44,874 bases of DNA from Dokdonia sinensis. GTDB taxonomy: Bacteria; Bacteroidota; Bacteroidia; Flavobacteriales; Flavobacteriaceae. Each line of letters starts with the position of its first letter. Within the stretch, counting starts at the first letter, position 1. This document shows positions 16,106 to 44,590 of the stretch, one piece after another. Made by a program: the position numbers and the translations under genes. The stretch covers positions 1-44,874 of the forward strand of contig NZ_REFV01000021.1 of assembly GCF_003688895.1 (NCBI RefSeq). The letters run 5' to 3'. The notes under the pieces are model-generated. The model searched no databases. It saw nothing but the letters and a program-made list of their open reading frames with translations, and was not told the DNA's origin.

Positions 16106-16144
16106 CGCTTTCGCGATTTATTCTGGATTTGTTTCAGGAAAGCG
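16106..16144. repeat. palindrome CGCTTTCGCG/AAAGCG split by a 23-nt insert
   Basis: CGCTTTCGCG (16106-16115) and AAAGCG (16139-16144) are the two parts of the common palindrome. They are separated by 23 nt (16116-16138) ending TGGATTTGTTTCAGG. A diverged inverted copy of the insert (CCTGAATCAAATTCGGG) lies about 30 nt further on. The split point is the same as in four other composite copies. Confidence 0.75.
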
Positions 16145-16227
16145 GAAAAAGTTTAAATACATTTCCTGAATCAAATTCGGGATTTAATTTGATAGCGGTG
16201 CGCTTAAGGCGTCACTATCTCATTGAA

Positions 16228-16623
16228 GGGGTCGACTGGTTTTGACAGCGAGACCAATGGTATTGTAAGCGTGTCGAGCGCTGGAAAACAGCTCGTAAAT
16301 CTCATTTTTCATCTTTTTAAACGGCGAGAATAACTACGCCCTAGCTGCATAATCCGAATTATAGTAGGATTACGCCTCGGTCTACAAGGTAGACAAGCAG
16401 GAAGTCACTCAAAGGCCTTGGTTTACGGCATTTGATATAGTGACTTCGTAAAAGTAAACCTATCCCTCGCAGGGCTTTGATGCAGGGGAGACATTTAATC
16501 GAAGATAAGGGGTGCGTTGGTAGTTTCTGACCGGCAATCTCACGAAAATCTAAACAGATACTACACACGTAGAAAGCAGTAACATTGCTTGTTTGGACGA
16601 GGGTTCGAATCCCTCCGACTCCA
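16228..16623 (+). ncRNA. ssrA: transfer-messenger RNA (tmRNA)
   Basis: Rescues stalled ribosomes with SmpB and tags the unfinished protein for proteolysis. The 5' end GGGGTCG pairs with CGACTCC at the 3' end. The T arm reads GGGTTCGAATCCC. The reading frame at 16323-16352 encodes the tag GENNYALAA followed by TAA. The length of 396 nt is normal for a one-piece tmRNA. The final CCA is not encoded: after the discriminator A at 16623 the DNA reads CT, so CCA must be added after transcription. A terminator hairpin follows directly. Confidence 0.96.
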
Positions 16624-16627
16624 CTTT

Positions 16628-16652
16628 AAAAGCCACCTTCGGGTGGCTTTCT
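16628..16652 (+). terminator. tmRNA terminator
   Basis: AAAGCCACC-TTC-GGGTGGCTTT hairpin ending in T-rich sequence, 5 nt after the mature tmRNA end. A diverged copy with one deletion in the stem is found at 16752-16774. Confidence 0.75.
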
Positions 16653-16699
16653 TGCGTATTCGGGGAATTCGCCCAGCGCGGCAGGCTCGCTCCTTGCTA

Positions 16700-16720
16700 A
16701 AAATGTCCACTGGACATTTT
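16700..16720. other. perfect short inverted repeat
   Basis: AAAATGTCCA, one C, then TGGACATTTT: a 10-bp perfect stem with a 1-nt centre, lying between the two tmRNA-end copies. It could be a binding site or a terminator remnant. Confidence 0.6.
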
Positions 16721-16935
16721 CTTAACGCGCGGACGTCTCCGACTCCACTTCAAAAGCCACCTTCGGGTGCTTTCTTACGTATTAGAGGGATTAGGCCGGT
16801 GCGTTAAGCTGGACCTTACGCTACAAAGAGCTAGTAGATTTTGCTTAACACTGCGGCCATCTCCCGCTCTACTTTACATGAAGATTTGCAATGGGAATTT
16901 CTAGTTGACAAATGGGTTGACAAAATTGCGAGTCA

Positions 16936-17721
16936 TTAACTCATCTTTTGCCACTCTGGACTAAAGTAAGTCGTCCTACCGCCTACTTTTATTTTCTCAA
17001 GCTCTTTCCCTGTATGATAACAAAACTCACGACCCTTTCGATTATGAATTAAAAAATAATCAGGAAAATCATTATAATGCGCTTCTAGATCTATGGCGAC
17101 TTCTATAACGTGCTGTAGTTTGTCGTAAATCGTTTTTAACTCTTTTTCGTTGAGAGCATTTGCCTTCTTGAGCGGATGGATTTGAGCTTGATACAAAACA
17201 TCGTCTGCGATCCAGTTACCGACACCTGTGGTGACGCTTTGGTTCATTAGGACGTTTTTAATAGCCGTTTTACGGTGGGCAACTGCTTCTTTAAATTGGT
17301 CAAAAGTGAGGTCACGAGCATCTATGTTGAGTTTGTGCTCCTTACGATAATTCTCAACAGAGTCTGTGATGTCCCACCAGCCAAACTTACGCTTATTCTC
17401 AAAAGCAAAGTGATACCCGTTTTCAAAACCAATATCGATATGCCCAAACCGCGGTCGATCTGCTGACTCATGGTAGTAATTAGGCCTTCCAGTCATCCCA
17501 AAATGTACTACCAAAATAGCACCATTACTAATGTGAATGAATAGATATTTTCCAATACGCTCAGTACGCAATAAACTGTTACCTAAAAGTATCTCCTTAA
17601 AATCCTTAAGCGGTTTTTTGATGAGACGTTCATCACGTACATCCATCGCCACGATAATATGGTCAAGACAAGTTTTATTTATGTATTGCTGGTATCCGTG
17701 TACTTCTGGTAATTCTGGCAT
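16936..17721 (-). CDS. Fpg/Nei family DNA glycosylase with a zincless finger
   Basis: A base-excision repair glycosylase/AP lyase. The catalytic N-terminus MPELPEV (Pro2 nucleophile, Glu3) and the conserved Lys58 (RIGKYL) are present, as is the H2TH region with TGVGNWIADDVLYQAQIHP. The C-terminal finger has the fold-defining VGGRTTYF hairpin (Arg249). However, its four zinc cysteines are largely gone: C234-Y-H-T237 where CxxC should be, and SPEW (254-257) where CPxC should be. This is like the zincless finger of the NEIL1 type. Preferred lesions (8-oxoG or oxidised pyrimidines) cannot be told. It is monocistronic. Confidence 0.9.
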   Translation of the reverse strand: MPELPEVHGYQQYINKTCLDHIIVAMDVRDERLIKKPLKDFKEILLGNSLLRTERIGKYLFIHISNGAILVVHFGMTGRPNYYHESADRPRFGHIDIGFENGYHFAFENKRKFGWWDITDSVENYRKEHKLNIDARDLTFDQFKEAVAHRKTAIKNVLMNQSVTTGVGNWIADDVLYQAQIHPLKKANALNEKELKTIYDKLQHVIEVAIDLEAHYNDFPDYFLIHNRKGREFCYHTGKELEKIKVGGRTTYFSPEWQKMS

Positions 17722-17804
17722 TAAATCTATTTGTAAAGTTTTGAAAATTGATCCTTAAAAATAAGCATAAGCTAAAGTATCAATAATTAAAAGATTTAGA
17801 AGTC

Positions 17805-17820
17805 CGCTTTCGCGAAAGCG
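17805..17820. repeat. dispersed palindrome CGCTTTCGCGAAAGCG (intergenic copy)
   Basis: A perfect 16-bp palindrome between the divergent glycosylase and EcsC genes. Confidence 0.95.
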
Positions 17821-17929
17821 TAACAAACCGTTTCCCCCTGAGACTGATTACAATAGAAATATACATCTCTTAATCCTTGGACATTCTTCCCAATAATGTC
17901 TTAGTTTTACTAAAAGTCAATTTCCAGCT

Positions 17930-18796
17930 ATGAGCTCACTTCCTGAAAAGACATCTCCATTTACATCACAAATCTCTAAAGAAGACGTTGCGCTGTTGCA
18001 CAAGTCAAAAAAAGACCTTACCAAAGTACCATTTGCAATGCGAGCATTAAACACTTTAGGCACTCCTATCGAAAAAAGCATCACACTCATACCAGAAAAA
18101 TATCAAGATAAAATTACTGAAACAGTTAAGAAAGCTTTACAACTGAGCGTAAAAGCTAATTTGAAAACCTTTCAAAATGATAAAACTAAATTAAAAGCTT
18201 CTAACAGGATGTATAAGGCTGTTACTACAGGAACAGGGTTTGTTGGTGGCTTTTTTGGCATTGCAGGTTTTACTGCAGATATACTGCTGAGCACAAAATT
18301 CTTGATGCGATCCATAATGGATATTGCTCGCAGTCAAGGCGAAGATATTACCGACCCTGAAGTGCAGTTACAATGTTTGCAAGTGTTTGCTCTAGGGGGA
18401 ACTTCTCCAGATGATGATTCTCTAGATAGTAGTTATTATGGGACAAGAATCGCATTAGACCAAGCACTATCCCAGATAGCGTCTACAGTTGCAACACAGG
18501 GAGCAAAAAAATTCTTACAGTCCATCGCATCGAGCGCACCAGGAGCGATGGGCGGATTTATGAGCAAGATTATTTCCAGATATAGCGTACAGGTGCTGGA
18601 TAAGTTTGCAGCTCAGGCTATTCCCATTGTAGGAGCAGCTTCTGGAGCAGGGCTTAATCTAATATTCTTGCATCACTTTCAACGGGTGGCTACGGCACAT
18701 TTTACAATCAGAAGATTAGAAAAACAATATGGAAAGGATGCTGTTATGGAAATGTATAATACAATTGATATACCGTCTACAGATGATCATAAATGA
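17930..18796 (+). CDS. EcsC family protein
   Basis: A 288-aa protein matching the EcsC family. It has a helical N-terminus, a Gly-rich membrane-associated segment (VTTGTGFVGGFFGIAGFTADILLSTKFLMRSIMDIA, about residues 100-135), a GTSPDDDSLDSSYYGTR block and a second hydrophobic stretch (AIPIVGAASGAGLNLIFLHHFQ) near the end. The family is named after the third gene of the Bacillus ecs locus and has no settled biochemical function. It may associate with the inner membrane. No close neighbours share its strand: the next gene is 231 nt on. Confidence 0.85.
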   Translation: MSSLPEKTSPFTSQISKEDVALLHKSKKDLTKVPFAMRALNTLGTPIEKSITLIPEKYQDKITETVKKALQLSVKANLKTFQNDKTKLKASNRMYKAVTTGTGFVGGFFGIAGFTADILLSTKFLMRSIMDIARSQGEDITDPEVQLQCLQVFALGGTSPDDDSLDSSYYGTRIALDQALSQIASTVATQGAKKFLQSIASSAPGAMGGFMSKIISRYSVQVLDKFAAQAIPIVGAASGAGLNLIFLHHFQRVATAHFTIRRLEKQYGKDAVMEMYNTIDIPSTDDHK

Positions 18797-19027
18797 TCAA
18801 AATTATGCTTGACTTACTCTATATAAATAGCAGATGCATATCATTGCCTCCTATGATCCATCTAGAAAGAATTTAAGATTTTTTTATCGTTTGTATGCAT
18901 ATGTTTTTACCAATTTGAACGTTTTTGCTCTAATCGGGGGAAATTTAAAATACGTATAGTTTGCGCATTATTAGATATTTAACTCATAATTTGGAGAATT
19001 TAGGATGTTAAACACTATTTTAATGTA

Positions 19028-19513
19028 ATGAGGAAGTTAACAAGGATATATACATTAATACTAGTAGAAATGGTAATCGTATTATCTTTTCTATTACTCA
19101 ATTCTTGCGAAGAAGCTCATAAAGAGAACCACAAAACTTTAGACACTCAATCCAAGAATAAGGTGACAATAAACGTTACTGCTACCGCATATAATTCGGT
19201 CGAGAGTCAAACTAAAAATGATAACATTGGTCGTGCCGCTTGGGGAGACTGGTTACAACCCGGCGAACGCGCCATTGCGGTATCACGAGATCTCATTGCA
19301 CTAGGTCTTGATCACAACGAGAAAGTAACCATAGAAGGTTTACCTGGCACCTACATCGTAAAAGATAAAATGAATAAACGCTGGAAAAAGAAAATTGATA
19401 TCTACATGGGACTTGACGTTCAGGCGGCACGGCAATGGGGTAAAAAAGATTTAGCCATTACTTTCAACAAAAAAGATAACCCTAACGATAAGTTTTCTGT
19501 GAAGACGCAATAA
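19028..19513 (+). CDS. lipoprotein with 3D (Asp-Asp-Asp) domain
   Basis: A 161-aa exported protein. The signal peptide ends in a lipobox (LLLNSC). A double-psi beta-barrel of the 3D type follows: ATAYNSVESQT at its start, then WLQPGERAIAVSRDL, and YIVKDKMNKRWKKKIDIYMG with the acidic residues that give the domain its name. 3D domains occur in MltA-type lytic transglycosylases and resuscitation factors, so a cell-wall role is plausible. The MltA catalytic insert is absent, so activity is unproven. It lies 55 nt upstream of the TrkA-C protein gene on the same strand. Confidence 0.82.
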   Translation: MRKLTRIYTLILVEMVIVLSFLLLNSCEEAHKENHKTLDTQSKNKVTINVTATAYNSVESQTKNDNIGRAAWGDWLQPGERAIAVSRDLIALGLDHNEKVTIEGLPGTYIVKDKMNKRWKKKIDIYMGLDVQAARQWGKKDLAITFNKKDNPNDKFSVKTQ

Positions 19514-19568
19514 ATTGGGTATTAAACGGCAATAAATACTAGCTTTGTGATCCATTTAATACTATGTT

Positions 19569-20345
19569 ATGATTGCTGCGGTATCTCTCTTTCTCATAAT
19601 TACCTTCTCCGTACTAATTACAAAAATTTGTACCATAGCCTTGGTGCATACAGGGTTATCTGAGGAGAGCGCAAAGTTTCAATCGCGATCTGCGTACACA
19701 GGTGCTGGCCTCAGCACTTCAGAAACGGAGAATATCATGAATCATCCTGTGCGCCGTAAGATTATTTATAACTTAATGCTTATTGGTAATGCGGGTATCG
19801 TCACCGCGATGTCTTCGCTCATTTTGACTTTTGTTTTGCCAGAATCTAATGCTTCACGCTTGTATGGGCTGCTTATTATTGTGGGTGGAATGCTGTTATT
19901 ATGGTTTGGGATACGTAGTTCGTGGGTTAACAGAGGTTTGTCGCGCATCATAAATAGAATGCTCAAAAAATATACAGACCTAGACATACACGACTACGCT
20001 GCTGTTCTCCACCTTAAAGATGATTTTAAAGTCATTGAGGCAAATGTAGATAGTGATGGCTGGATGTGCAATCGCACACTCCAAGAACTGAATTTAAGAG
20101 AGGAAGGCATAACAATATTAGGAGTACATAGAAAGGGTTCTGGATATTTTGGGTCTCCGTCTGGTACTTTTATGATGCTTCCTAATGATGTTGTAACCAT
20201 TTATGGTAAATCCGATGGCATACAGAGTCTTTACAATCGCAAGAAAGATTATTATGCCCAGCTGGAACACGACAAATTTGTAGAAAAAGAAGAAGAGCGC
20301 ATTGTCTCTGATAAGGAAAAGCTTAAAACACAGGCTGACGAATAA
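19569..20345 (+). CDS. membrane protein with cytoplasmic TrkA-C (RCK_C) domain
   Basis: A 258-aa protein with three transmembrane segments (about 1-24, 65-87, 95-113). A TrkA-C regulatory domain (about 135-225; VIEANVDSDGWMCNRTLQEL, ITILGVHRKG, MMLPNDVVTIYG) and a charged tail follow. TrkA-C domains bind ligands and gate potassium channels or other ion transporters. The loop SAYTGAGLSTSETE between TM1 and TM2 recalls the filter loops of Trk/Ktr proteins, but a complete pore unit is not present. A multimeric channel or a regulator are both possible. Probably co-transcribed with the 3D lipoprotein. Confidence 0.7.
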   Translation: MIAAVSLFLIITFSVLITKICTIALVHTGLSEESAKFQSRSAYTGAGLSTSETENIMNHPVRRKIIYNLMLIGNAGIVTAMSSLILTFVLPESNASRLYGLLIIVGGMLLLWFGIRSSWVNRGLSRIINRMLKKYTDLDIHDYAAVLHLKDDFKVIEANVDSDGWMCNRTLQELNLREEGITILGVHRKGSGYFGSPSGTFMMLPNDVVTIYGKSDGIQSLYNRKKDYYAQLEHDKFVEKEEERIVSDKEKLKTQADE

Positions 20346-20386
20346 CTATATTTTCTTTCTTTAGCTTGATTTAGATTTTTTTGTTA

Positions 20387-20402
20387 CGCTTTCGCGAAAG
20401 CG
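20387..20402. repeat. dispersed palindrome CGCTTTCGCGAAAGCG (intergenic copy)
   Basis: A perfect copy between the convergent TrkA-C protein gene and the tail-like cluster. No standard terminator is seen here. Confidence 0.95.
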
Positions 20403-20451
20403 TACTACCCAATACTGATAATAAGACGAATTACAATTAAGTTTTAAATAA

Positions 20452-20964
20452 CTAAATCCAATCGACATACAAAGGCATCTGCATCCACAAGAGTTTAATA
20501 GCAGAAAAAGACCACGAGATGTCGTGCATCAGTACATCTATTGTTGTAGATTCTACCTTGAAGCTGTATCCATTTTCTGAGCGCGAAAGTGATCCATCTC
20601 TTTGCATAAAATTCTCCTGCACAGCAGCTAGGCTAGAGTTTTCCAGTTTAGACCAATTTGCCTTGAACCCGTTTAACAAACTTTCTGATATTTCTATTTC
20701 TACCGTTGTCAGGGATGCAACAGGAGTTACGGGTTGAACAAGAGGCATACCAACCAAAATTTTATTGAGCGGCAACCTATACTCAGAAAAATCTATCTCG
20801 TTATAAACAAGGTATTGCAAGAGGTAGACCGCCCTATGCTGACTCTCTGAATCTTTAAAATTATCTCCATCCAGCATTCCCAACTGCTCAAAATAAGACC
20901 TTAAAAATGGCCAGACTAAAATAAGCCCGGCATTTTCTACCCGTATCAATTCTGTTTCTTCCAT
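20452..20964 (-). CDS. short contractile-injection-system tape-measure C-terminal domain protein
   Basis: A 170-aa protein. It matches the conserved C-terminal module of tape-measure-type proteins in extracellular contractile injection systems (Afp14-like): AGLILVWPFLRSYFEQLGMLDG, AVYLLQYLVYNEIDFSEYRLPLNKILVG, an ENSSLAAVQENFMQRDGSL block and a final IKLLWMQMPLYVDW. The long N-terminal helical ruler present in full tape measures is missing. The start follows the upstream tube gene by 21 nt, with its own ATG, so this looks like a stand-alone domain and not a frameshifted remnant. It is last in the four-gene cluster. Confidence 0.72.
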   Translation of the reverse strand: MEETELIRVENAGLILVWPFLRSYFEQLGMLDGDNFKDSESQHRAVYLLQYLVYNEIDFSEYRLPLNKILVGMPLVQPVTPVASLTTVEIEISESLLNGFKANWSKLENSSLAAVQENFMQRDGSLSRSENGYSFKVESTTIDVLMHDISWSFSAIKLLWMQMPLYVDWI

Positions 20965-20985
20965 CGCTTATATGCACTATACTTA

Positions 20986-21444: not shown

Positions 21445-21449
21445 TAATC

Positions 21450-21902: not shown

Positions 21903-21967
21903 TGTAGTATGTTTTTAAGTATTGTTGCCTTCCTAATTTAATCTATGATTAAAGTAGTTTCATAGGA

Positions 21968-23800: not shown

Positions 23801-23838
23801 CGCTTTTGCGATAGGCTGAAGACGTATTTATAAAAAGC
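23801..23838. repeat. composite repeat: split palindrome with CTGAAGACGTATTTATAA insert
   Basis: CGCTTTTGCG and AAAGC flank a 23-nt insert (23811-23833) ending CTGAAGACGTATTTATAA. The same insert, at the same point, occurs at 41562-41598 and, inverted, at 44552-44590. Confidence 0.85.
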
Positions 23839-23840
23839 AT

Positions 23841-24729: not shown

Positions 24730-26118
24730 TTATGTCAAAGTTATCTGAGATGTATCTGCTTTCTTAATCGCACCATAACCACCCAGCACGTTCACTACAT
24801 TTTCTATACCGTAGGACCTTGCTATAGATGCATAAATGAGGGAACGATATCCACCTGCGCAATGTATGTGGTACTTTTTATTTCCATCAAGTTCTCTCAC
24901 ATTATGATGAATTTCATCTAGTGAAAAATGGGGTACACCCTCTATATGGCTAGTTTTATACTCTCCAGGCTTACGGACATCGAGTGGGTTTACTATTGTT
25001 CCTTCGGCAATGCCATTAATAAATTCTTGAGCAGTTACTTCGGCAATAGATACGGTTTCTTTTCCTGCCGCCTCCCAAGCTTCGACTCCGCCTTTGAGAT
25101 ATCCCAGACTGTTATCATAACCTACTCTCGCGAGACGAGTAACGACTTCTTCTTCTGTTCCAGGTTCGGCGAGAAAGATGATTTTTTGATGAATATCTGG
25201 CATTAATGCTCCTACCCAGGGAGCAAACTGCCCCTTGAGTCCTATAAACCAAGCGGAAGGGATGGACGCTTTCGCGAAAGCGGAAACACCTCGAGTGTCA
25301 AGAACAAGAACATCATCTTGTATTGAAAGCTTCTCAAAATCATCTACCGAAAGTGCGGAAGTGCCCCGTTTTATAATGTCTCCAAATTCTGTATTTACTT
25401 GTTTATTCATCGCTACATTCTCTGGGAAATATGCCGGTGGCATCTCAAGACCTGTAGTGAGCTCTTTTATAAATTCTTGTTTCGTAAGATTAAACGCATA
25501 GTTTGTTTTCTTCTGGTTACCTAAAGTGTCGCTGGTCTCACTACTCATATTTTTTCCACAAGCAGAGCCAGCACCGTGGGCAGGATAAATAATAATGTTG
25601 TCGTCTAGTGGAGCAATACGGTTGTGTAAACTATCGTAAAGATGTCCGGCAAGATCCTCGGTAGTGAGGGTAGACTTTGCCGCAAGGTCTGGACGGCCTA
25701 CGTCGCCTATAAAAAGTGTGTCTCCTGTAAATAGCGCCTCAGCTTTCCCAACGTCATCTTTTAATAAATAACACGTAGATTCCATAGTATGGCCAGGAGT
25801 ATGAATAGTCGTAATAGATAACTTACCGATTTGAAACACCTCATTATCCTTTGCACTATGGTAATCATAACCTGCCTTTGCATTAGGACCTAGTATTACT
25901 GTAGCTCCAGTCGCTCTTGCAAGATCTACTTGACCGCTCACAAAATCTGCGTGAAAATGAGTCAGAAAAATATACTTAATCTTACTATCATTTTCTGCCG
26001 CAAGGTCAAGGTAAGGCTGCACCTCTCTTAGCGGATCTATAATTGCTGCCTCTCCTTCAGAGCTTATAAAGTAGGCTCCTTGAGCTAGGCATTTTGTATA
26101 TAATTGCTTTAAAATCAT
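24730..26118 (-). CDS. CstB-like persulfide dioxygenase-rhodanese fusion
   Basis: A 462-aa cytosolic protein with three parts. (1) A metallo-beta-lactamase-fold persulfide dioxygenase (ETHE1 type), residues 1-240, has THFHADF (His54, His56, Asp58; Phe59 where hydrolases have His, fitting a single-iron site), HTPGH and FTGDTLFIGDVGRPDL. (2) A rhodanese-like domain, about 260-355, has no active-site Cys (loop LAEPGTEEE). (3) A C-terminal rhodanese has Cys420 in HCAGGYRS. This order (dioxygenase, pseudo-rhodanese, rhodanese) is that of CstB, which turns persulfides into thiosulfate and removes excess sulfide. The ATG at 26118 is preferred over a TTG at 26124. A palindrome copy at 25267-25282 encodes AFAKA in the pseudo-rhodanese domain. 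Confidence 0.9.
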   Translation of the reverse strand: MILKQLYTKCLAQGAYFISSEGEAAIIDPLREVQPYLDLAAENDSKIKYIFLTHFHADFVSGQVDLARATGATVILGPNAKAGYDYHSAKDNEVFQIGKLSITTIHTPGHTMESTCYLLKDDVGKAEALFTGDTLFIGDVGRPDLAAKSTLTTEDLAGHLYDSLHNRIAPLDDNIIIYPAHGAGSACGKNMSSETSDTLGNQKKTNYAFNLTKQEFIKELTTGLEMPPAYFPENVAMNKQVNTEFGDIIKRGTSALSVDDFEKLSIQDDVLVLDTRGVSAFAKASIPSAWFIGLKGQFAPWVGALMPDIHQKIIFLAEPGTEEEVVTRLARVGYDNSLGYLKGGVEAWEAAGKETVSIAEVTAQEFINGIAEGTIVNPLDVRKPGEYKTSHIEGVPHFSLDEIHHNVRELDGNKKYHIHCAGGYRSLIYASIARSYGIENVVNVLGGYGAIKKADTSQITLT

Positions 26119-28661: not shown

Positions 28662-28675
28662 TTCGTCTGGGTTGC

Positions 28676-28683
28676 TATCTTTG
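28676..28683 (+). promoter_or_regulatory. putative -7 box of the trp operon
   Basis: TATCTTTG matches TAnnTTTG. The expected start falls within a few nucleotides of the leader-peptide ATG at 28692. A clear -33 TTG is not seen; that region is occupied by the preceding terminator. Confidence 0.5.
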
Positions 28684-28691
28684 AGGCTCAA

Positions 28692-28748
28692 ATGAAAAAT
28701 AACACAGTACATACTTGGTGGTGGAACATACAACGTAACCCGTCGTAA
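28692..28748 (+). CDS. trpL: trp operon leader peptide (attenuator peptide)
   Basis: An 18-codon reading frame, MKNNTVHTWWWNIQRNPS, with three consecutive Trp codons at 28716-28724. It is followed 28 nt after its stop by a strong terminator and then by trpE. This is the classic layout for ribosome-mediated attenuation: with little charged tRNA-Trp the ribosome stalls on the Trp codons and the terminator is not formed. The segment GTCGTAAG over the stop codon (28742-28749) is complementary to CTTACGAC (28786-28793), in the terminator loop and 3' arm, and could be the antiterminator partner. Confidence 0.88.
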   Translation: MKNNTVHTWWWNIQRNPS

Positions 28749-28776
28749 GCCACGCCCGTATGTCTATATCATATTA

Positions 28777-28804
28777 AAGCCTGTCCTTACGACAGGCTTT
28801 TTTT
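28777..28804 (+). terminator. trp attenuator terminator
   Basis: AAAGCCTGTC-CTTAC-GACAGGCTTT followed by a T run, 137 nt before the trpE start. It is the terminating half of the attenuation switch with trpL. Confidence 0.9.
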
Positions 28805-28940: not shown

Positions 28941-30338
28941 ATGAAATACAACTTAAAAACACACGCAAAAAAGCTCTTAGCAGACACCATCACGCCCGTG
29001 TCTGTGTACCTGAGATTGCGCGACCGTTTTCCTAATAGCCTCTTGCTGGAAAGTAGCGACTACCACGCAAACGATAACAGCTTTAGCTATATCTGTTGCA
29101 ATCCTATTGCTTCCATAAAAGTGGCAAATGGCACCATCGTTCAGCAGTTTCCAGACGGGACGGGTAAGGAAATCACGATGGATAAAGAAACAAATGTTGT
29201 GGGGATTTTGGACGCTTTCGCGAAAGCGTTCTCCGCCACCACCACCGCGCATAAATTCATAAATAATGGTTTGTTTGGGTACTTATCCTATGATGCCGTG
29301 CAGTATTTTGAAGACATTGACATTGCCAAAAAAGAAGGTGATCTCGAAATTCCAGATGTGTATTATGCGGTGTATCAAAACATCATTGCGATAAACCATT
29401 TTAATAACGAGGCTTACATTTTTTGCCACAACACCACAGGCGAAAACAACATTGCCGAAATCGAGCAACTCCTTAAATCAAAAAACTTTGCCGAGTATAA
29501 TTTTGCAAAATCCGGCGCCCCGGAGAGCAACATTACAGACGAAGATTATAAGAGCCTGGTAGACACCTGCAAAAAACATTGCCAGCGTGGCGATGTGTTC
29601 CAGATTGTGCCCAGCAAGCGATTCTCACAGAAGTTTACTGGAGACGAATTCAATGTTTATCGAGCATTGCGGTCTGTAAATCCCTCTCCTTATTTGTTTT
29701 ACTTTGATTATGGGGACTTTAAAATCTTTGGTTCATCACCAGAAGCTCAACTAGTAGTAAAAGAAGGAAAAGCCGAAATCCACCCCATTGCTGGCACCTT
29801 TAAACGTACTGGAAATGATGAGCAAGATGCCATCCTAGCCAAAGAACTCGCCAAAGACGAAAAAGAAAACTCAGAACACGTGATGCTGGTAGACCTTGCT
29901 CGCAATGACTTATCCAGAAATGGACATAGCGTTCAGGTAGAAACCTATCGCGAAGTGCAATTTTTCTCCCACGTGATACACCTAGTAAGTAAAGTGACGG
30001 GTACAATGCACAAAGACAGCAATACCCTGCAAGTAGTGGCAGATACGTTTCCTGCAGGAACCCTAAGTGGAGCGCCTAAACATAATGCAATGCAATTACT
30101 GGAGAAATACGAAAACCGAAACCGTACCTTTTATGGTGGAGCGATTGGGTTTATGGATTTTAGCGGTAATTTTAATCACGCGATAATTATCAGGTCTTTT
30201 CTAAGTAAAAACCACGCCCTGCACTTTCAAGCAGGCGCAGGAGTAGTATCGGGAAGTGACCCGTCTAAAGAATTACAAGAAGTGTACAACAAACTAGGAG
30301 CTTTGCAAAAAGCCCTCGAACTCGCAGAAGCAATCTAA
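28941..30338 (+). CDS. trpE: anthranilate synthase component I
   Basis: 465 aa. With TrpG it makes anthranilate from chorismate, the first committed step to tryptophan. The feedback-binding LLESS element is near residue 33, and the chorismate-binding core holds IAGTFKRTG, LVDLARNDLSRNG, FPAGTLSGAPKHNAMQLL and QAGAGVVSGSDP. The start at 28941 (MKYNLKTHAKKLL) is chosen over an earlier in-frame ATG at 28896 that lies in the leader hairpins. A palindrome copy at 29213-29228 encodes DAFAKAF. First structural gene of the trp operon. Confidence 0.96.
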   Translation: MKYNLKTHAKKLLADTITPVSVYLRLRDRFPNSLLLESSDYHANDNSFSYICCNPIASIKVANGTIVQQFPDGTGKEITMDKETNVVGILDAFAKAFSATTTAHKFINNGLFGYLSYDAVQYFEDIDIAKKEGDLEIPDVYYAVYQNIIAINHFNNEAYIFCHNTTGENNIAEIEQLLKSKNFAEYNFAKSGAPESNITDEDYKSLVDTCKKHCQRGDVFQIVPSKRFSQKFTGDEFNVYRALRSVNPSPYLFYFDYGDFKIFGSSPEAQLVVKEGKAEIHPIAGTFKRTGNDEQDAILAKELAKDEKENSEHVMLVDLARNDLSRNGHSVQVETYREVQFFSHVIHLVSKVTGTMHKDSNTLQVVADTFPAGTLSGAPKHNAMQLLEKYENRNRTFYGGAIGFMDFSGNFNHAIIIRSFLSKNHALHFQAGAGVVSGSDPSKELQEVYNKLGALQKALELAEAI

Positions 30339-37104: not shown

Positions 37105-37184
37105 AGGTAGTTTGATAGGTTAGTCCTGATGTATCACTCATTATAAAGTTATCACTTTACCGAAAATAATCACAAGCCTATCCC

Positions 37185-37290
37185 CTCGCCCCGATTGTAG
37201 TGAAAATCCCGCAATAAAGCGATAGCGAAATGAGAGCTTGTACCGAATATACTTCGGGAAATTGAAGCGGAAAGCGGGAAATTGCTCCTG
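37185..37290. other. possibly structured non-coding stretch
   Basis: The 280-bp gap after the PH-like gene contains CCCGC (37208-37212) complementary to GCGGG (37274-37278), enclosing the hairpin CCGAA-TATAC-TTCGG (37243-37257). The base composition is much richer in G and C than the rest of the gap. No reading frame is convincing. It may be a structured RNA or a degenerate repeat. Confidence 0.35.
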
Positions 37291-37513: not shown

Positions 37514-37536
37514 GCTTGATTGTAATAAGAATAAAA

Positions 37537-38020: not shown

Positions 38021-38041
38021 AATATTTTTTTTGTCATTTCC

Positions 38042-38063
38042 GCACTTCGGCTACGCTCAGTGC
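38042..38063. repeat. dispersed repeat GCACTTCGGCTACGCTCAGTGC
   Basis: The ends GCACT/AGTGC are complementary and the core TTCGGCTACGCTCAG is the same as the left arm of the trpF insertion. It lies between ddl and coaD. Confidence 0.75.
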
Positions 38064-38086
38064 AAGCTCGGGCGAGAATCTTACTA

Positions 38087-39106
38087 TTAATTTCCTAATC
38101 GCTTCATGCAATCTTCAACCGCCTGCCCTAAAACTTGGGTAAGTGTTTGTCCAGATGCTTTTATCTGTCTCGGTATAATACTTTCTTTTGACAATCCAGG
38201 GTTTGTATTCACCTCAACAAAATGGGGTTTCCCTTTGTGAAAGATAAAGTCGATCCTACAAATACCCTTGAGATTCATTATTTCATAAATTCCGCTAGTG
38301 AGCGACTGTACGGCTTGCGTATCTTCATCACTTAGTCTTGCGGGTACAATTTCTTGTGATTTTCCAGAATATTTTGCGGTGAGGTCAAAGAAATCTCCGT
38401 CCGGAACAATTTCGCATACAGGCAAAACCTTAGTTCCATCTCCAAAATTAAAAACTCCCACAGATACTTCAGTACCGCTTAGGAATGATTCTATGAGCAC
38501 TTCACTGTCTTCTGCAAATGCTTTATTTAGTGCGTCCTCGAGGTCACCCTCCTTGTATACTTTGCTCACACCGTAACTGGACCCGGCACGGTTAGGTTTT
38601 ACAAAACAGGGATAACCGATGTTTACAGCCACACCATTTTTAAATTCCATCGTTATATCATCTCCTTCATTAACATAGACAGATGATGCCATAGGCACGC
38701 CATACGATTTTAACACACTGAGGGTATCCTTTTTATTAAAGGTAAGTGCACTCTCGTAAAAGTTACAACTCGTTTGGGGAATGCCCAAAAGTTCAAGATA
38801 AGCTTGCAGTTTACCATCTTCTCCCGGTGTCCCGTGTATGGTGTTGTAGCAGGCAGAGAAAGTCACTCTTTTCGCGCCCGCCTGTCCGGCCGGCAGGAAA
38901 GCGTCCTTAAAACTAAAGTCACTTTTATCTATTTCAAACTCCTGACCGTCGACCACGGCAAACCAGCCCCGTTTTAAAATATGAACGGGATAGACATTGT
39001 ATAGATCATCGTTCAGTGATTGTACGACGGTGGCGCCACTTTGGAGCGAGATTTCGAATTCGCTACTGTAGCCACCCATTAAAACGGCAATATTCTTTTT
39101 GTGCAC
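38087..39106 (-). CDS. ddl: D-alanine--D-alanine ligase
   Basis: 339 aa ATP-grasp enzyme making the D-Ala-D-Ala dipeptide for peptidoglycan. It has VLMGGYSSEFEISLQSG, the HGTPGEDGKLQAYLEL substrate loop, the FVKPNRAGSSYGVSKV ATP-binding strand, RIDFIFHKG and FVEVNTNPGLSKESI. A seven-residue stretch, LPAGQAG (about residue 70), interrupts an otherwise expected DAFAKRV. It is encoded by a GC-rich palindrome that split a copy of the common 16-bp palindrome. It is transcribed divergently from the PASTA/rluD genes and upstream of coaD. Confidence 0.95.
   Translation of the reverse strand: MHKKNIAVLMGGYSSEFEISLQSGATVVQSLNDDLYNVYPVHILKRGWFAVVDGQEFEIDKSDFSFKDAFLPAGQAGAKRVTFSACYNTIHGTPGEDGKLQAYLELLGIPQTSCNFYESALTFNKKDTLSVLKSYGVPMASSVYVNEGDDITMEFKNGVAVNIGYPCFVKPNRAGSSYGVSKVYKEGDLEDALNKAFAEDSEVLIESFLSGTEVSVGVFNFGDGTKVLPVCEIVPDGDFFDLTAKYSGKSQEIVPARLSDEDTQAVQSLTSGIYEIMNLKGICRIDFIFHKGKPHFVEVNTNPGLSKESIIPRQIKASGQTLTQVLGQAVEDCMKRLGN
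38868..38903. repeat. GC-rich palindrome nested in the common palindrome, inside ddl
   Basis: CTTTTCGCG and AAAGCG (38898-38903) are separated by 21 nt (38877-38897) containing CCTGTCCGGCCGGCAGG. The insert keeps the ddl frame, adding seven codons. Confidence 0.85.
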
Positions 39107-39187
39107 TTTCGTGAAAATTTATACAGCCCAAAACAAATGGACTGGCATTACGTTAAGGTAAAAATAGGGGTTTCTTTTAATATCCTA

Positions 39188-39195
39188 TATCTTTG
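39188..39195 (+). promoter_or_regulatory. putative -7 box of the PASTA-rluD operon
   Basis: TATCTTTG matches TAnnTTTG, 22 nt before the PASTA-protein ATG at 39218. This supports that start over earlier in-frame codons. Confidence 0.5.
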
Positions 39196-39217
39196 TAACA
39201 CTAACCACTATCTATTT

Positions 39218-39817
39218 ATGAGTATTATCAAATTCATTTTTAGCAAGACATTTGTCAAACAACTTGTACTTGCGTTTATATTCCTTATTCTATTAATTTT
39301 TCTTGTAAAATGGTGGCTGGGAAGCACTACAAACCACGATGAGCGTATTGCGGTACCAAACATCAAAGGGATGACACTAGACCTTGTAGATCAAGAACTA
39401 AGCAATGTAGATCTGCGTTATTTCATCATAGACAGCGCAAATTATAATCCAAATTATCCTAAATATTCTGTAATAGAGCAAGACCCAGAAGCGGGAAAGT
39501 TTGTAAAGGAAAATAGACAGATCTATCTGGTACTCAATCCGTCAGGATTTAGAAAAATTACAGTTCCCGAGAACTTGATAGGACGCACAAGGCGCCAAGT
39601 AGAACCGACACTCAAGGCGTTAGGCTTTGAAGTGGGTACGATTACCTATATAGATCACATAGGTGAAGATGAAGTACGTGGCTTGCGCCACAAAGGAAAA
39701 TCTGTAAGTCCTGGCGATAGACTAGAGAAAACATCTGTCATTGACCTTGTGTTAGGAAATGGAAAAGGGAGCTACCGCGACGCTTTTAACGATGATAATG
39801 ATGACACCGATGGATGA
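39218..39817 (+). CDS. membrane-anchored PASTA domain protein
   Basis: 199 aa. It has a short cytoplasmic N-terminus, one transmembrane helix (about residues 15-34) and two PASTA domains outside the cytoplasmic membrane (starting at VPNIKGMTLDLV and VPENLIGRTRRQV). An acidic tail follows. PASTA modules bind peptidoglycan fragments, mostly in serine/threonine kinases and penicillin-binding proteins; here there is no kinase or transpeptidase domain. Next to ddl, a cell-wall sensing role is plausible. The end overlaps the rluD start by 8 nt. Confidence 0.87.
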   Translation: MSIIKFIFSKTFVKQLVLAFIFLILLIFLVKWWLGSTTNHDERIAVPNIKGMTLDLVDQELSNVDLRYFIIDSANYNPNYPKYSVIEQDPEAGKFVKENRQIYLVLNPSGFRKITVPENLIGRTRRQVEPTLKALGFEVGTITYIDHIGEDEVRGLRHKGKSVSPGDRLEKTSVIDLVLGNGKGSYRDAFNDDNDDTDG

Positions 39818-40853
39818 AAATAAAGTGATGGGTCCTGAGGAAGAGGGAGACGACGAATTGTATGAGCATTATAGTTTTACCGCAAGCAAAGGACAGGAAC
39901 CTTTGCGCGTGGATAAGTTCCTGATGAACTTTGTCGAAAATGCTACCCGAAATAAAATACAGAAAGCTGCAAAAAACGGAAGCATACAAGTAAATGACGT
40001 TGTTGTAAAACAAAATTACAAAGTCAAAGCTGGAGATGTAGTGCGCGCTTTATTTGAATACCCAAAACCTGAGAACCTTCTCACGCCACAGAATATCCCA
40101 CTAGATATTGTTTATGAAGATGATACGTTACTCGTGGTAAACAAGCCGGCGGGAATGGTGGTTCATCCTGGTCACGGGAATTATGATGGGACGCTCATTA
40201 ATGGTCTCATTTACCACTTTGACAATCTGCCTAACAACAGTAGTGAGCGCCCAGGACTCGTACACCGCATAGATAAAGACACTTCTGGCCTGCTGGTGAT
40301 TGCCAAAACCGAACACGCCATGGCACATCTATCCAAGCAATTCTTTAATAAAACCACGGAGCGGGAATATGTCGCTATCGTTTGGGGAAATGTAGTGGAC
40401 GATGAAGGTACGATTGAAGGCAATATAGGACGGCATCCTAAAAACAGATTACAGAATACAGTTTTCTTTGGCGATGAGGCTGATAATGGAAAACCTGCGG
40501 TTACACACTATAAAGTCATTGAACGTTTGGGCTATGTAACGTTAGTGTCCTGCAAATTGGAAACTGGTCGAACTCACCAGATACGGGTGCATATGAAACA
40601 CATAGGTCACACACTTTTTAACGATGAGCGCTACGGTGGAGATGCCATCTTAAAAGGAACCTCGTTTACTAAATACAAACAGTTTGTAGATAATTGTCTT
40701 AAAGTGCTCCCGAGACAAGCCCTACACGCCAAAACTTTAGGCTTCGTACATCCTATTTCTGGAGAATACAAACGTTTTGAGACCGAAATCCCAGAAGATA
40801 TGACGGCTTGTATTGAGAAATGGCGTAATTATGCTACGCACGTGCAGGAGTAA
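39810..40853 (+). CDS. 23S rRNA pseudouridine synthase, RluD/RluA family
   Basis: 347 aa. It has an N-terminal S4 RNA-binding domain (RVDKFLMNFVENATRNKIQKAAKNGSI) and a catalytic domain with the HRIDKDTSGLLVIAK motif carrying the catalytic Asp, LETGRTHQIRVH and ALHAKTLGFVHP. It isomerises uridines of large-subunit rRNA, in E. coli RluD those of helix 69. I chose ATG 39810 (MDENKVMGPEEE), which overlaps the PASTA stop (ATGGATGA). Positional class RluD is likely but not proven. Confidence 0.92.
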   Translation: MDENKVMGPEEEGDDELYEHYSFTASKGQEPLRVDKFLMNFVENATRNKIQKAAKNGSIQVNDVVVKQNYKVKAGDVVRALFEYPKPENLLTPQNIPLDIVYEDDTLLVVNKPAGMVVHPGHGNYDGTLINGLIYHFDNLPNNSSERPGLVHRIDKDTSGLLVIAKTEHAMAHLSKQFFNKTTEREYVAIVWGNVVDDEGTIEGNIGRHPKNRLQNTVFFGDEADNGKPAVTHYKVIERLGYVTLVSCKLETGRTHQIRVHMKHIGHTLFNDERYGGDAILKGTSFTKYKQFVDNCLKVLPRQALHAKTLGFVHPISGEYKRFETEIPEDMTACIEKWRNYATHVQE

Positions 40854-40933
40854 TTAAATATTTCTGTTGTATTTCATTAGTTAATGGTCAAGACAATTAG
40901 ACGTAGTTTTTATATAATGTATCTATTAATAAA

Positions 40934-41446
40934 TTGAAAAAAGTCACTTACACATTCTTTTTAATTGCGTTTGGATTTAGAATTTCAGCTCAAAATTGGA
41001 AGATTAACCCTGATATTCAAGTTGACTCAACCATAATAAAGATTAAAAAATCAAATTTTGAATACTTTGCTTATAGTTCGTATGACAATGGTAAATCTGA
41101 TTCACTAGTTGTGGTAATAGGATCTGTTGGTACGAGCGTTACTGCATTTGGTATTAATTTACAGGAGAAACCAGAAGCATATATTACCCTCTACTCTGAC
41201 TACCCTGAATATAATGGAAAAAATATCTTAAACGTAGAGTTTGAGTTTTACGATTTAGAAATTAACAGCAGTAAATTTGAGAAAGGTGATCAAATAATGG
41301 GAAGAATCTCAGGTAAATCAAAACCGATCATAAATGATTCAAAAGAAAGTTATATTGAAATTGAGGGAGAATTTAATCATCGAATTGGAAAAATAATGAT
41401 TAAGAGAGAGGCAAAGGAAAAATATAGAATAATCGATGATCATTAA
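40934..41446 (+). CDS. uncharacterised secreted protein
   Basis: A 170-aa frame beginning with TTG. It has a signal peptide (KKVTYTFFLIAFGFRISAQ) and a polar, beta-rich mature part with no cysteines that suggest disulfides. I recognise no domain. Base composition is more AT-rich than its neighbours. Upstream is an 80-nt gap; downstream, a terminator. The TTG start and AT-richness leave some doubt, but the signal peptide is convincing. Confidence 0.6.
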   Translation: MKKVTYTFFLIAFGFRISAQNWKINPDIQVDSTIIKIKKSNFEYFAYSSYDNGKSDSLVVVIGSVGTSVTAFGINLQEKPEAYITLYSDYPEYNGKNILNVEFEFYDLEINSSKFEKGDQIMGRISGKSKPIINDSKESYIEIEGEFNHRIGKIMIKREAKEKYRIIDDH

Positions 41447-41515
41447 GAGCTACATAATAAAATATGTAACAATTACTACTAATTGTATCTTGACCATTTC
41501 AAAATGAATAGAGAT

Positions 41516-41546
41516 AAAGCCAGAACAAATAAAAGTTCTGGCTTTT
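41516..41546 (+). terminator. terminator after the secreted protein gene
   Basis: AAAGCCAGAAC-AAATAAAA-GTTCTGGCTTTTT, about 70 nt past the stop. It may also catch the convergent rny transcript. Confidence 0.75.
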
Positions 41547-41561
41547 TATATTTCCAATAAA

Positions 41562-41598
41562 CCTTTCGCGATACGCTGAAGACGTATTTATAAAAAGT
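41562..41598. repeat. composite repeat with CTGAAGACGTATTTATAA insert
   Basis: CCTTTCGCG and AAAGTG flank a 23-nt insert (41571-41593) almost identical to those at 23811-23833 and 44558-44580. It lies just beyond the rny stop. Confidence 0.85.
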
Positions 41599-41607
41599 GA
41601 AACAATT

Positions 41608-43173
41608 CTACTTCGCAATATTCACCGCACGTGTCTCACGTATTACGGTTACTTTTACTTGCCCTGGGTAGGTCATATCGGTTTGAATTTTCTGCGAAAT
41701 CTCGAAGGATAATGCTCCTGCTTTATCATCACTCACTTTCTCACTCTCGACAATTACTCGGAGTTCGCGACCGGCTTGTATGGCGTACGCCTTCTGTACT
41801 CCCTGGAAGCCAAAAGCAATATCCTCTAGATCCTTTAAACGCTGGATGTATGAATCTAATACCTGACGTCTCGCCCCTGGACGTGCACCGCTTATGGCGT
41901 CACATACCTGAACTATAGGAGATAGTAAACTCGTCATTTCTATTTCATCGTGGTGCGCTCCTATGGCGTTGCATACTTCTGGTTTTTCGCCATATTTCTC
42001 TGCCCACTGCATTCCTAGGATTGCGTGAGGGGTTTCTGTATCTGTTTCTGGTACTTTTCCTATATCGTGCAATAATCCCGCGCGACGCGCTAGCTTTGCA
42101 TTTACGCCAAGTTCTGCAGCCATAACGCTACAAAGCTTTGCCACTTCCCTACTGTGTTGTAAGAGGTTCTGACCGTATGAGGAACGATATTTCATCCTTC
42201 CTACGGCCTTTATAAGTTCTGGATGTAACCCGTGAATCCCTAAATCAATTACGGTGCGTTTACCTACCTCAACAATTTCTTGCTCGATTTGCTTAGTCGT
42301 TTTATTTACAACTTCCTCAATACGTGCAGGGTGAATACGTCCATCAGTCACTAATTTGTGCAAAGATAATCGTGCAACCTCACGACGTACGCTGTCAAAA
42401 CAAGAAAGGATAATCGCCTCTGGGGTATCATCTACAATGATCTCTACGCCCGTTGCTGCTTCAATGGCGCGTATATTACGTCCCTCACGGCCTATGATAC
42501 GACCTTTTACATCGTCACTTTCTAAGTTAAATACAGAGACACAGTTTTCGACTGCCTCCTCTGTTCCGATACGTTGTATGGTGTTTATGATTATTTTCTT
42601 TGCTTCTTGCTCTGCCGTCATTTTTGCCTCTTCCATTGCGGTCTGGATGTGTGCCATCGCATCTGTTTTAGCCTGATCTTTTAGCGTTTCTACGAGTTGT
42701 GATTTTGCTTCTTCGGCAGAGAGTCCCGAGATTACTTCGAGCTGTTTTACAGAGCTAGCGTGCATTTTCTCAGCTTCGGCAGTTTTCTTGTCTACGTATT
42801 CTAGACGCTTATCGTAATCCTTAAGCTTGTCTTCTAAGGACTGGTTGAGTTTTTTATTTCGCGAAAGCTCACTACTCACCTGTGACTCTTTATCCCGTAC
42901 ACGCTTTTCTGACTCTGATATTTTCTTGTCACGGCTCAAGATGACCTTCTCGTGCTCAGATTTGAGCTCGATAAATTTTTCTTTGGCCTGTAGTATCTTA
43001 TCTTTTTTGAGTGCTTCTCCTTCTGACTTTGCTTCTTTAAGAATGCCTTGGGCACTTTTCTTTGCGCGTTGTATGAGTTTTGAGGCGTTGTTGCGTTCTA
43101 GCAACTTTGCTGCAAGAAAGCCTATTGCTAGTGCAATCACACCTACAATAAACAAGAGTGCGGTATGTTCCAT
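41608..43173 (-). CDS. rny: ribonuclease Y
   Basis: 521 aa membrane-anchored endoribonuclease that starts mRNA decay. An N-terminal transmembrane helix ([20 protein letters not shown]) is followed by a long charged coiled coil to about residue 190. The KH domain ([31 protein letters not shown]) and the HD domain with [10 protein letters not shown] and AHHDEIE follow. ATG 43173 (MEHTALLF) puts the anchor at the N-terminus; a farther in-frame start at 43236 is unlikely. A palindrome-like stretch at 42857-42869 encodes ELSRNK in the coiled coil. Confidence 0.96.
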
Positions 43174-43328
43174 AATTAAGTTAAGTATTAAGACGCCCTT
43201 CGGCGATCTAGTGGTTGATGGTGTGGTATTACCCACAAAGCAACTCGCTATGAGTGCTTTTTTAATATTCGTCTAATGACGAGGGTTTTAGATATAGCAA
43301 TTATTTTACGTAGTTGCATTATCTAAAA

Positions 43329-43622
43329 GATCCTGACCTGCGTCGGGAATTGTCTGACCAGCGCATCATTAAAAAGCATTAGTCTTACAAATGGATCCCG
43401 ACCTGCGTCGGGATTTGTTCGACCAGCACTTTATTAAGAACTTCGATCTTACAAATAGATCCCGACCTGCTTCGGGATTTGTTCGACCAGCGCATCATTA
43501 AAAAGCATTAGTCTTACAAATGGATCCCGACCTGCGTCGGGATTTGTTCGACCAGCGCATCATTAAAAAGCATTAGTCTTACAAATGGATCCCGACCTGC
43601 GTCGGGATTTGTTCGACCAGCA
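43329..43622. repeat. tandem repeat, five units of 64-65 bp
   Basis: Units begin GATCC(C/T)GACC at 43329, 43394, 43458, 43523 and 43588; the last is cut short. Each has the hairpin ATCCCGAC-CTGC-GTCGGGAT, then TTGTTCGACCAGC and an AT-rich tail ending CTTACAAAT. Units 2, 4 and 5 are nearly identical; units 1 and 3 differ. The array lies between rny and the 6S RNA gene and fills most of that 490-bp gap. Confidence 0.9.
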
Positions 43623-43664
43623 GTATTATGTGCGCCCTGCGGGCTTCATAGTACTGGGTCTCAC

Positions 43665-43843
43665 AAAAAAAAGCCTGCATTAGTCTGGGTTCTGTATAAA
43701 CTCCTAAAAAAAGGATTTGAGCTATAAGGCTGATCAAGAGTCCCTCTACCTAGTCAAGCTAGTAAGGGCGTTCTTTTACAGTCTAGAGTCGCTCGGTTAT
43801 AAAATAACTGTTGAGTTTATCAAAAAAATAACCAATGCAGGCA
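43665..43843 (-). ncRNA. ssrS: 6S RNA (flavobacterial type)
   Basis: Minus-strand transcript about 175 nt long, folding into a rod. The ends GCCTGCATT (43834-43842, read on minus) and AATGCAGGC (43673-43681) pair. A second stem, ATAAACTC/GAGTTTAT (43813-43820 with 43696-43703), follows inside. The middle is a large purine/pyrimidine-mixed bulge, as in 6S RNA. The 3' strand runs straight into eight T residues. It lies about 30 nt downstream of zapA, the same neighbour that 6S RNA has in gammaproteobacteria. 6S RNA binds the housekeeping RNA polymerase in stationary phase. The call rests on structure and context. Confidence 0.75.
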
Positions 43844-43872
43844 GTAATATGCTTGTTGTATGTAAAGAACGT

Positions 43873-44163
43873 CTATGTTAAGCTCTGTTCGAGTAATTCT
43901 GACAGCCGTTGTAATCTGGCTGCTGTTTTTTCACTTACAGAGTCTTCATCTATAGTTTTTTGGGTAACCTGAGAGGCAAATTGTAAGGCACACATGGCCA
44001 GTACATCTTGCTTATCTCTAACGGCGTAACTCTGCTCAAATTGCTTGACCATTGCTTCTATATCCTTTGTTGCCTTGCGCAACCCCTCTTCTTGGGCAGG
44101 ATTTATCGTGAGCGGATACACTCGATCTGCAATAGACAACTTGATTTTGAGCTTGTCTGCCAT
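43873..44163 (-). CDS. zapA: cell division protein ZapA
   Basis: 96 aa; bundles FtsZ filaments at the division site. It has the N-terminal LSIADRVYPLTINPAQEEGLRKATKDIEAMV beta-alpha domain and a C-terminal coiled coil (SEKTAARLQRLSELLEQ). It starts 6 nt after a small coiled-coil gene and precedes the 6S RNA. Confidence 0.9.
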   Translation of the reverse strand: MADKLKIKLSIADRVYPLTINPAQEEGLRKATKDIEAMVKQFEQSYAVRDKQDVLAMCALQFASQVTQKTIDEDSVSEKTAARLQRLSELLEQSLT

Positions 44164-44169
44164 AAAATA

Positions 44170-44460
44170 TTATTCTGCAAGGGATGCGATACACGCATCT
44201 ATCTCACGTACTAAAGCGTTTATCTTCAGTTTGGTTTCCCGTTTGTAATCATTACTGCCTAGTAGTGCATTTGCGGTTTTGAGCGTCTTGATCTGTCCTT
44301 CGTGTGTTTCGACGATTGCTTTAAGTTGTTTGTTCTCCTGTTGCGTGGCGGTAAGTTCTTGTTCTAAAACTACCCGCATTTGCTTCACATCTTCGTATTT
44401 TTTCAACAAAGCAGCGATTCTAATTTCCAGTGAATCAACAACTTCAGAAAGAGAACTCAT
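44170..44460 (-). CDS. small coiled-coil protein upstream of zapA
   Basis: 96 aa from ATG 44460 (MSSLSEVVDSLEI), nearly all alpha-helical coiled coil with heptads (IAALLKKYEDVKQMRVVLEQEL, ENKQLKAIVETHEGQIKTLK) and a C-terminal INALVREIDACIASL helix. By size, shape and place it recalls ZapB-type ZapA partners, but no sequence identity is claimed. Translation is probably coupled to zapA. Confidence 0.7.
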   Translation of the reverse strand: MSSLSEVVDSLEIRIAALLKKYEDVKQMRVVLEQELTATQQENKQLKAIVETHEGQIKTLKTANALLGSNDYKRETKLKINALVREIDACIASLAE

Positions 44461-44551
44461 AACACAAGTGCATTTACTACGTCTCACAAAGTTAACGTTT
44501 CATTAATATTCTAGCAATGGATACAGGTTAAAATTTAAAGGATGTTTTTTA

Positions 44552-44590
44552 CGCTTTTTATAAATACGTCTTCAGCTTATCGCGAAAAAG
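44552..44590. repeat. composite repeat (inverted copy) with CTGAAGACGTATTTATAA insert
   Basis: Read on the minus strand: CTTTTTCGCG, then the 23-nt insert (44558-44580), then AAAGCG. Third copy of this insert in the window, in the opposite orientation to the other two. Confidence 0.85.

Follow-up and report, generated by a model that had tools for sequence, protein, structure and literature searches.

We report that in Dokdonia sinensis unrelated small hairpins have been inserted, time and again, into already existing copies of a 16-bp palindrome, CGCTTTCGCGAAAGCG, mostly at the point CGCGAA^AGCG and with no visible duplication of the target. The stretch analysed, called the window hereafter, is 44,874 nt long and is contig 14 (NZ_REFV01000021.1) of the 43 contigs of the 3.65-Mb host genome. 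It contains five split copies of the palindrome, and all five copies listed in a preliminary description of this DNA are present at the positions given there. The palindrome occurs evenly spaced throughout the genus, and because several unrelated hairpins entered it repeatedly at nearly one point, it has the look of a place where tiny mobile DNA docks. That the inserts arose by insertion at a fixed point is in our view very probable, while the agent of the insertion is much less certain, as discussed below.

Insert families and the break point

The five split copies lie upstream of the transfer-messenger RNA (tmRNA) gene (16106..16144, plus strand), in two intergenic places (23801..23838, minus strand, and 44552..44590, plus strand), inside ddl (38868..38903, minus strand) and just 3' of the RNase Y gene (41562..41598, minus strand). 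At 23801 (where it reads TATAAATACGTCTTCAGC..), 41562 and 44552 the insert is of one family, D9 (stem TACG..CGTA), and the sequence CTGAAGACGTATTTATAA, which the preliminary description had rightly seen as shared by three inserts, occurs exactly three times, while at least three matches at up to 3 mismatches were found in 0 of 100 dinucleotide shuffles. The insert at 16106 is a 23-nt member of family e (..TTTATTCTGGATTTGTTTCAGGA..), and that in ddl, 21 nt long and resembling family b, is in frame and codes for LPAGQAG between AF and AKR. Since three of the five inserts are of one family, the window holds three unrelated inserts and not five. The arms are imperfect at four of the five sites: the arm at 23801 reads CGCTTTTGCGA, the first letters are CCTTTCGCG at 41562 and CTTTTCGCG at 38868, and at 44552 the last letters on the opposite strand are GCGAAAAAGG. 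No Rfam family was found at the split sites at gathering thresholds, and the RNA folding of four split forms, with z-scores from 0.39 to -1.65, is not persuasive.

In the whole host genome, the split copies are palindromes carrying a hairpin element of 20-24 nt, or of 45 nt in one family, and at least five unrelated families are seen. Family b, CCTGCCTGNCGNCAGGCAGG, has 17 copies; D9 has 12 at up to 3 mismatches and none in 17 congeners; the composite of family c, ACYTGTGCTGAGCGNAGTCGAAGT, with the palindrome has 29 at up to 3 mismatches, and among the congeners 6 in G017, 5 in G015, 2 in G014, one each in G007 and G001 and none in the 12 others. Family e has the form ..CTGAACTTGTTTCAG.., and family g, the one of 45 nt, is present in G014, G007 and G017. 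It is noted that b is also present in 22 of 119 genomes besides the host, in other genera of the same family, and in 33 viral-contig stretches. The copies examined there are embedded in quite different sequences, so that the palindrome is the host genome's target and not a part of b. The junctions of b outside the host genome favour purine^pyrimidine (36 of 66, versus 3 of 66 with the opposite order). In the viral contigs, the c composite word was not found. The idea that b interrupts functional tRNAs was rejected, since ARAGORN, given the rejoined flanks, recognised a tRNA at no more than one locus. Many genera and viral contigs (L118-L137, L151-L160, L179-L211) contain the 20-nt palindrome CCTGCCTGCCGGCAGGCAGG, sometimes at fixed points of other repeats and of tRNA-like D-arms (GGTTA^GAGC).

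The preliminary description had drawn the break as TTTCGCG^AAAG. A break at CGCG^AAAG is indeed found in ddl and in one of the 17 b copies, but the commonest one is CGCGAA^AGCG, equivalently CGCT^TTCG, two bases further to the right. Sixteen of the 17 b copies in the host genome adjoin GCGAA^[AG]GC and the remaining one adjoins CGCG^AAAGC; the left arm of b is the full CGCTTT[CT]GCG in 11 of the 17, its inner part only in 3, and in 3 more it belongs to the related hairpin TTTCYGCGAA^GGCGGA. The inserts c and g break the palindrome at CGCGAA^AGCG, or at CGCT^TTCG when they lie on the other strand. A scan of break points using arms of at most 8 bases was informative only after the inserts had been grouped. 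The loose pattern TTTCGCG-N(15-30)-AAAG, which had been proposed as a way of collecting split copies, is not enriched, occurring 33 times in the 445 kb made up of C1:1-400000 and the window, versus 31, 31, 32 and 34 times for four control words. Only with the full arm AAAGCG is there a small peak at gap 23, with 4 of the 7 matches at gaps 15-30, which stems from real repeat families.

Filled and empty sites of a genus-wide palindrome

The site-specific insertion suggested by the preliminary description is borne out by orthologous filled and empty sites in ddl, in a luxC-like gene and in a coenzyme A (CoA)-binding gene, and, between genes, by the corresponding places upstream of the tmRNA gene, in the region of 44552 and 3' of the RNase Y gene. 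The sites 16106, 38868, 41562 and 44552 each have counterparts in some congeners where the palindrome is uninterrupted. In ddl (D-alanine-D-alanine ligase, 38087..39106, minus strand; PF01820, PF07478), the in-frame insert (AF LPAGQAG AKR) is absent from all 17 other aligned genomes, with the same codons reading the intact CGCTTTCGCGAAAA in 3 congeners and its one-base variant CGCTTCCGCGAAA in 3 (22 of 30 loci were used, the anchor motif being missing from 4 of the 22). Among 18 genomes, the luxC-like gene has the uninterrupted palindrome in 9 (7 exact, 2 with one mismatch), is filled in 4 and has no palindrome in 5, the inserts being c in the host, c turned the other way round in G015, and the 45-nt g in G014 and G007. 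The CoA-binding gene, compared in 17 genomes, has the uninterrupted core in 5, inserts in 2 (c in the host, g in G017) and no palindrome in 10. In all three genes the filled site minus the empty site gives the insert alone, with no visible target duplication of the kind made by insertion sequences or MITEs, and the inserts are 21, 24 or 45 nt long, every length being divisible by three. Moreover, 9 of the 10 genomes with no palindrome in the CoA-binding gene encode an equal number of residues at the site, so that the palindrome there arose by substitution; it is older than its insert.

Upstream of the tmRNA gene (16228..16626, plus strand; RF00023), which anchors the site 16106, the core TTTCGCGAAA is uninterrupted in 13 of 17 congeners (6 with the exact 16-mer), missing in 3 and not assessable in one, and the surroundings permit no base-for-base alignment. 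Of 16 congener loci 3' of the RNase Y gene (41608..43236, minus strand; PF12072, HD, KH), which anchors the site 41562, 3 contain the palindrome in exact form, 2 contain half of it or a variant and 10 have none, one being not assessable; the region of 44552, likewise at 16 loci, has the palindrome in 6 (5 exact, one with one mismatch), a half or variant form in 5 and none in 4, one being unreadable.

The palindrome itself is present in 630 exact copies in the host genome and in 138-711 copies per genome in all 17 congeners examined, and among 41 genomes outside the genus there are 495 copies in one, 4 in one and none in 39. The word CTTTCGCGAAAG was observed 96 times in a 400-kb sample, versus 0.06 expected under an order-4 model. 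The window contains eight exact copies of CGCTTTCGCGAAAGCG, which has no strand (1491..1506, 3356..3371, 9969..9984, 14281..14296, 17805..17820, 20387..20402, 25267..25282 and 29213..29228), and further variants differing by one to four bases. By a simple open-reading-frame rule, 54 of 81 sampled exact palindromes are within genes and 27 between genes. In three genome samples (G000:C1:1-400000, G016:C1:1-200000 and G011:C10:1-200000), the 12-bp core has a mean spacing of 3.5-6.4 kb, with coefficients of variation of 0.66, 0.63 and 0.49 versus 0.99, 0.97 and 0.95 at random, the fraction of 2000 simulations as evenly spaced as observed being 0.000; in C1, 2 gaps below 1 kb were observed with 20 expected. 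The outer flanks, 18 nt on each side, are nearly without G when read outward (about 7% versus 20%), both in predicted genes and between them, and two congeners sampled give 6.4% and 9.2% versus 19.3% and 16.5%. From this analysis the palindrome could serve the genus as a signal for DNA uptake or on the chromosome, and it resembles a DNA uptake sequence or the highly iterated palindrome (HIP) motif.

The split sites share these properties. The fraction of G is 0.061 on each side of 10 full-arm b copies and 0.042 on the CGCT side of the 12 D9 copies, with a background of 0.197. Only 1 of 17 split sites has an intact copy within 1.5 kb, versus 61% of random positions (P 2.7e-6), under a fixed motif rule that misses the b copy at 49086, whose inclusion gives 2 of 18. 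A hand-picked set of 13 filled sites gives 0 of 13 within 1.5 kb, versus 61% of intergenic control positions; the b copies at C1 49086 and 84683 were omitted from this set after their distances were known, and with them 2 of 15 are within 600 bases.

Several further observations are noted here. The palindrome word is present in 41 viral-contig stretches and twice in L025, a 20-kb sequence of an uncultured Dokdonia sp., which is identical to G014 over 170 bases 3' of the RNase Y gene. The 495 copies outside the genus are in G027, of another genus of the same family, and may reflect independent gain, transfer, or a taxonomy needing revision; of 17 further genomes sampled from other genera of that family, one has 4 copies and 16 have none. 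In the window, the 3' end of the tmRNA gene (16613-16645) is repeated 124 bases downstream at 16737-16769 (97% over 33 nt), which looks like the attachment-site duplication of an integrated element; a 116-nt unit occurs four times at steps of 64-65 nt in 43325-43634, just upstream of the RNase Y gene; and Rfam gives a Bacteroid-trp leader and a Flavo-1 RNA (28672-28785 and 37183-37285), each barely above threshold.

Possible routes of insertion

The overall explanation that we favour, with moderate confidence, is that elements like the repetitive extragenic palindromic (REP) sequences were inserted at a preferred point into pre-existing palindromes, possibly by a joining reaction of the HUH/Y1 kind. 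Based on this explanation, the elements would be REP-like non-autonomous units, and the palindrome would be extruded as a hairpin in single-stranded DNA, which would then be nicked at a preferred bond and the element joined there, as by the HUH/Y1 enzymes (IS200/IS605-TnpAREP). Insertions breaking a gene or disabling the palindrome would then be lost, while the intergenic and in-frame ones would remain. E. coli TnpAREP is reported to cut at CT (PMC8266576), and one strand of the insertion site reads CGCT^TT, with CT at the bond; HUH enzymes would thus fit the absence of duplication, the hairpin inserts and the CT at the bond. To an HUH-type enzyme as the agent we give, nevertheless, somewhat less than even credence.

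Several results weigh against the favoured explanation. No single exact bond is used, CGCG^AAAG being used too, and one A of the arm is lacking in D9, in the e insert at 16106 and in the split copy near the Y1 gene. On the side opposite CGCT, the flank of D9 can hardly be called G-poor with certainty (0.153). A general targeting of hairpin loops by b was rejected, the pairs spanning the junction averaging 6.54 at 67 foreign sites versus 6.59 in controls. In the 445-kb sample, with a half-palindrome defined as CGCTTTCGCGAA with at most one mismatch and no AGCG after it, there are 228 uninterrupted sites counted by strand and 42 half sites, 9 of which have an insert recognised by a simple rule (3 e, 4 c and 2 b); as the other 33 have none recognised, a half copy by itself is no sign of insertion. 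The Y1 genes, moreover, do not appear to track the inserts. Of the 18 genomes of the genus, 4 have a match to PF01797 (the host, or G000, and G007, G010 and G015), while the c composites are in 6 of the 18, three of which (G001, G014 and G017) have no match, although a past loss of Y1 is possible in these genomes and the assembly of G001 is 85% complete. G010 has five matches but no c, and neither b nor c nor e was found at 8 other Y1 loci by a pattern search, which had, however, missed the c-type split palindrome near the host's own Y1 gene. The inserts have thus no enzyme tied to them, and a link between them and the Y1 genes is not supported.

The preliminary description had also suggested looking for a Y1/HUH transposase gene of the REP type flanked by the same repeats. 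The single PF01797 gene of the host, Y1/RAYT-like, of 187 aa and beside hemF (G000:C43:60595-60933; L105 1300-1863), has on both sides direct copies of an unrelated repeat (cctcgcaggtc..ttgtaggtctg); the closest feature related to the inserts is a c-type split palindrome at a distance of about 1.1 kb, which seems to be in frame within the next gene but one. In G016 and G011, which have no PF01797 match, no insert was found in 10 and 8 half sites (200 kb each). By eye, no GTAG/CGTC end tag is seen on b (CGCGAA[b]AGCG) or e (..CAGA|AGCG), c alone yielding GT|AG across its junction.

It is possible, although we regard it as rather unlikely, that the palindrome would be a chromosome-wide uptake or spacing signal of the genus which unrelated mini-elements use as a common socket through an undescribed joining mechanism. 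Equally doubtful is the accompanying proposal that any of several hairpins can be joined at one point there, also in frame in genes such as ddl. We know of no earlier palindromic uptake or spacing signal in the Bacteroidota.

Three other explanations can be considered. Under ectopic copying, each insert would have entered one palindrome once and spread between palindromes by template switching or gene conversion, the break point being fixed since the arms provide the homology. This requires no dedicated enzyme, and it agrees with break points that are nearly identical within a family, with arms that vary little and with the amplification of D9 in the host species only. It leaves unexplained, however, the first entry of at least five unrelated families at nearly one point; the homology is only about 12 + 4 bp, the flanks vary between copies, and two species have c at the same orthologous site but pointing in opposite directions. 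We hold ectopic copying to be unlikely, if worth keeping in view. If, on the other hand, the hairpins inserted anywhere and those within palindromes were kept only where CGCTTTCGCGAA and one G-poor flank stayed intact, because the remaining half still functions as a signal, it would be understood why the commonest break spares 12 of the 16 bases and one G-poor flank, why the split sites are still part of the wide spacing and why the inserts within genes, where orthologs were compared, keep the reading frame. Yet all 17 b copies of the host adjoin GCGAA^ or GCG^ of such hairpins, and the palindrome covers well below 1% of the genome, so that the loss of misplaced inserts alone would need to be extreme; b is, besides, at many unrelated sites in other genera. 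We regard this survival of a few among many insertions as an unlikely cause. Finally, coincidence, or common descent from a single degenerate repeat without any insertion, agrees with the background level of the loose pattern and with three of the five inserts described earlier being one family, but it is already contradicted by the orthologous filled and empty sites in the luxC-like and CoA-binding genes; the filled and empty sites in ddl and between genes also speak against it, as do the 17 of 17 b copies at one kind of place, and we hold it to be extremely improbable.

Relation to known systems

How very small gene-free repeats move is an open question, and their choice of target is usually invisible; a defined 16-bp target with hundreds of empty copies as controls makes the insertion countable and datable. 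Moreover, given its spacing and flank rules, the word can be put to the test as a possible signal for DNA uptake or for chromosome organisation in marine Flavobacteriia. Small dispersed repeats in cyanobacteria were reportedly the subject of work by Elhai in 2008. In the open-licence literature of PubMed Central (PMC), we found no paper with CGCTTTCGCGAAAGCG, GCTTTCGCGAAAGC or the b words, and the matches to TTTCGCGAAA included none by title on the subject; an excerpt of PMC12306157, on REP finding, has nothing on these words.

Like HIP1 of cyanobacteria (PMC4390886), the palindrome is highly iterated, lineage-wide and present in coding and non-coding DNA; unlike it, it has 16 bp, 18-nt G-poor outer flanks and a core spacing of 3.5-6.4 kb with close pairs strongly excluded. 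It shares with the DNA uptake sequences, known generally as DUS in Neisseriaceae and as uptake signal sequences (USS) in Pasteurellaceae (PMC7965970), the hundreds of copies, the even spacing, the gain by substitution inside a gene and the extended flanking preference, and differs from them in being fully palindromic, in belonging to Flavobacteriaceae and in the occurrence of the word in viral-contig stretches as well. The inserts, for their part, resemble the rickettsial palindromic elements (RPE, via PMC3733652), which are inserted in frame in genes, with the difference that here they occupy a palindrome target.

With the REP/RAYT (TnpAREP) systems (PMC8266576, PMC6006769), the present elements have in common the short hairpins, the lack of a target duplication here and a CT at the bond, such as E. 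coli TnpAREP cuts; in-frame REP insertions have also been reported inside tnpAREP genes (PMC6006769). By contrast, b and e have no GTAG foot, the Y1 gene is not directly flanked by these repeats, and the presence of Y1 and that of the inserts do not appear to match. The closest parallel is given by REPs within target palindromes, namely GTAG-23 of T. roseum, GTAG-15 of A. variabilis and CGTC-1 of H. neapolitanus (Di Nocera et al. 2013, PMC3733652), where small repeats are likewise regularly inside a palindrome, with hundreds of empty targets in T. roseum. In those systems there is one REP family per target, whereas here a single 16-bp target, present throughout the genus, is common to at least five unrelated families, the greater part of the sampled intact copies is in predicted genes, and orthologous empty sites are shown. 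Thus, while REPs inside target palindromes were already known, what is added here is one target common to several unrelated families, together with its orthologous empty sites, the in-frame cases and the uptake-like marks of the target.

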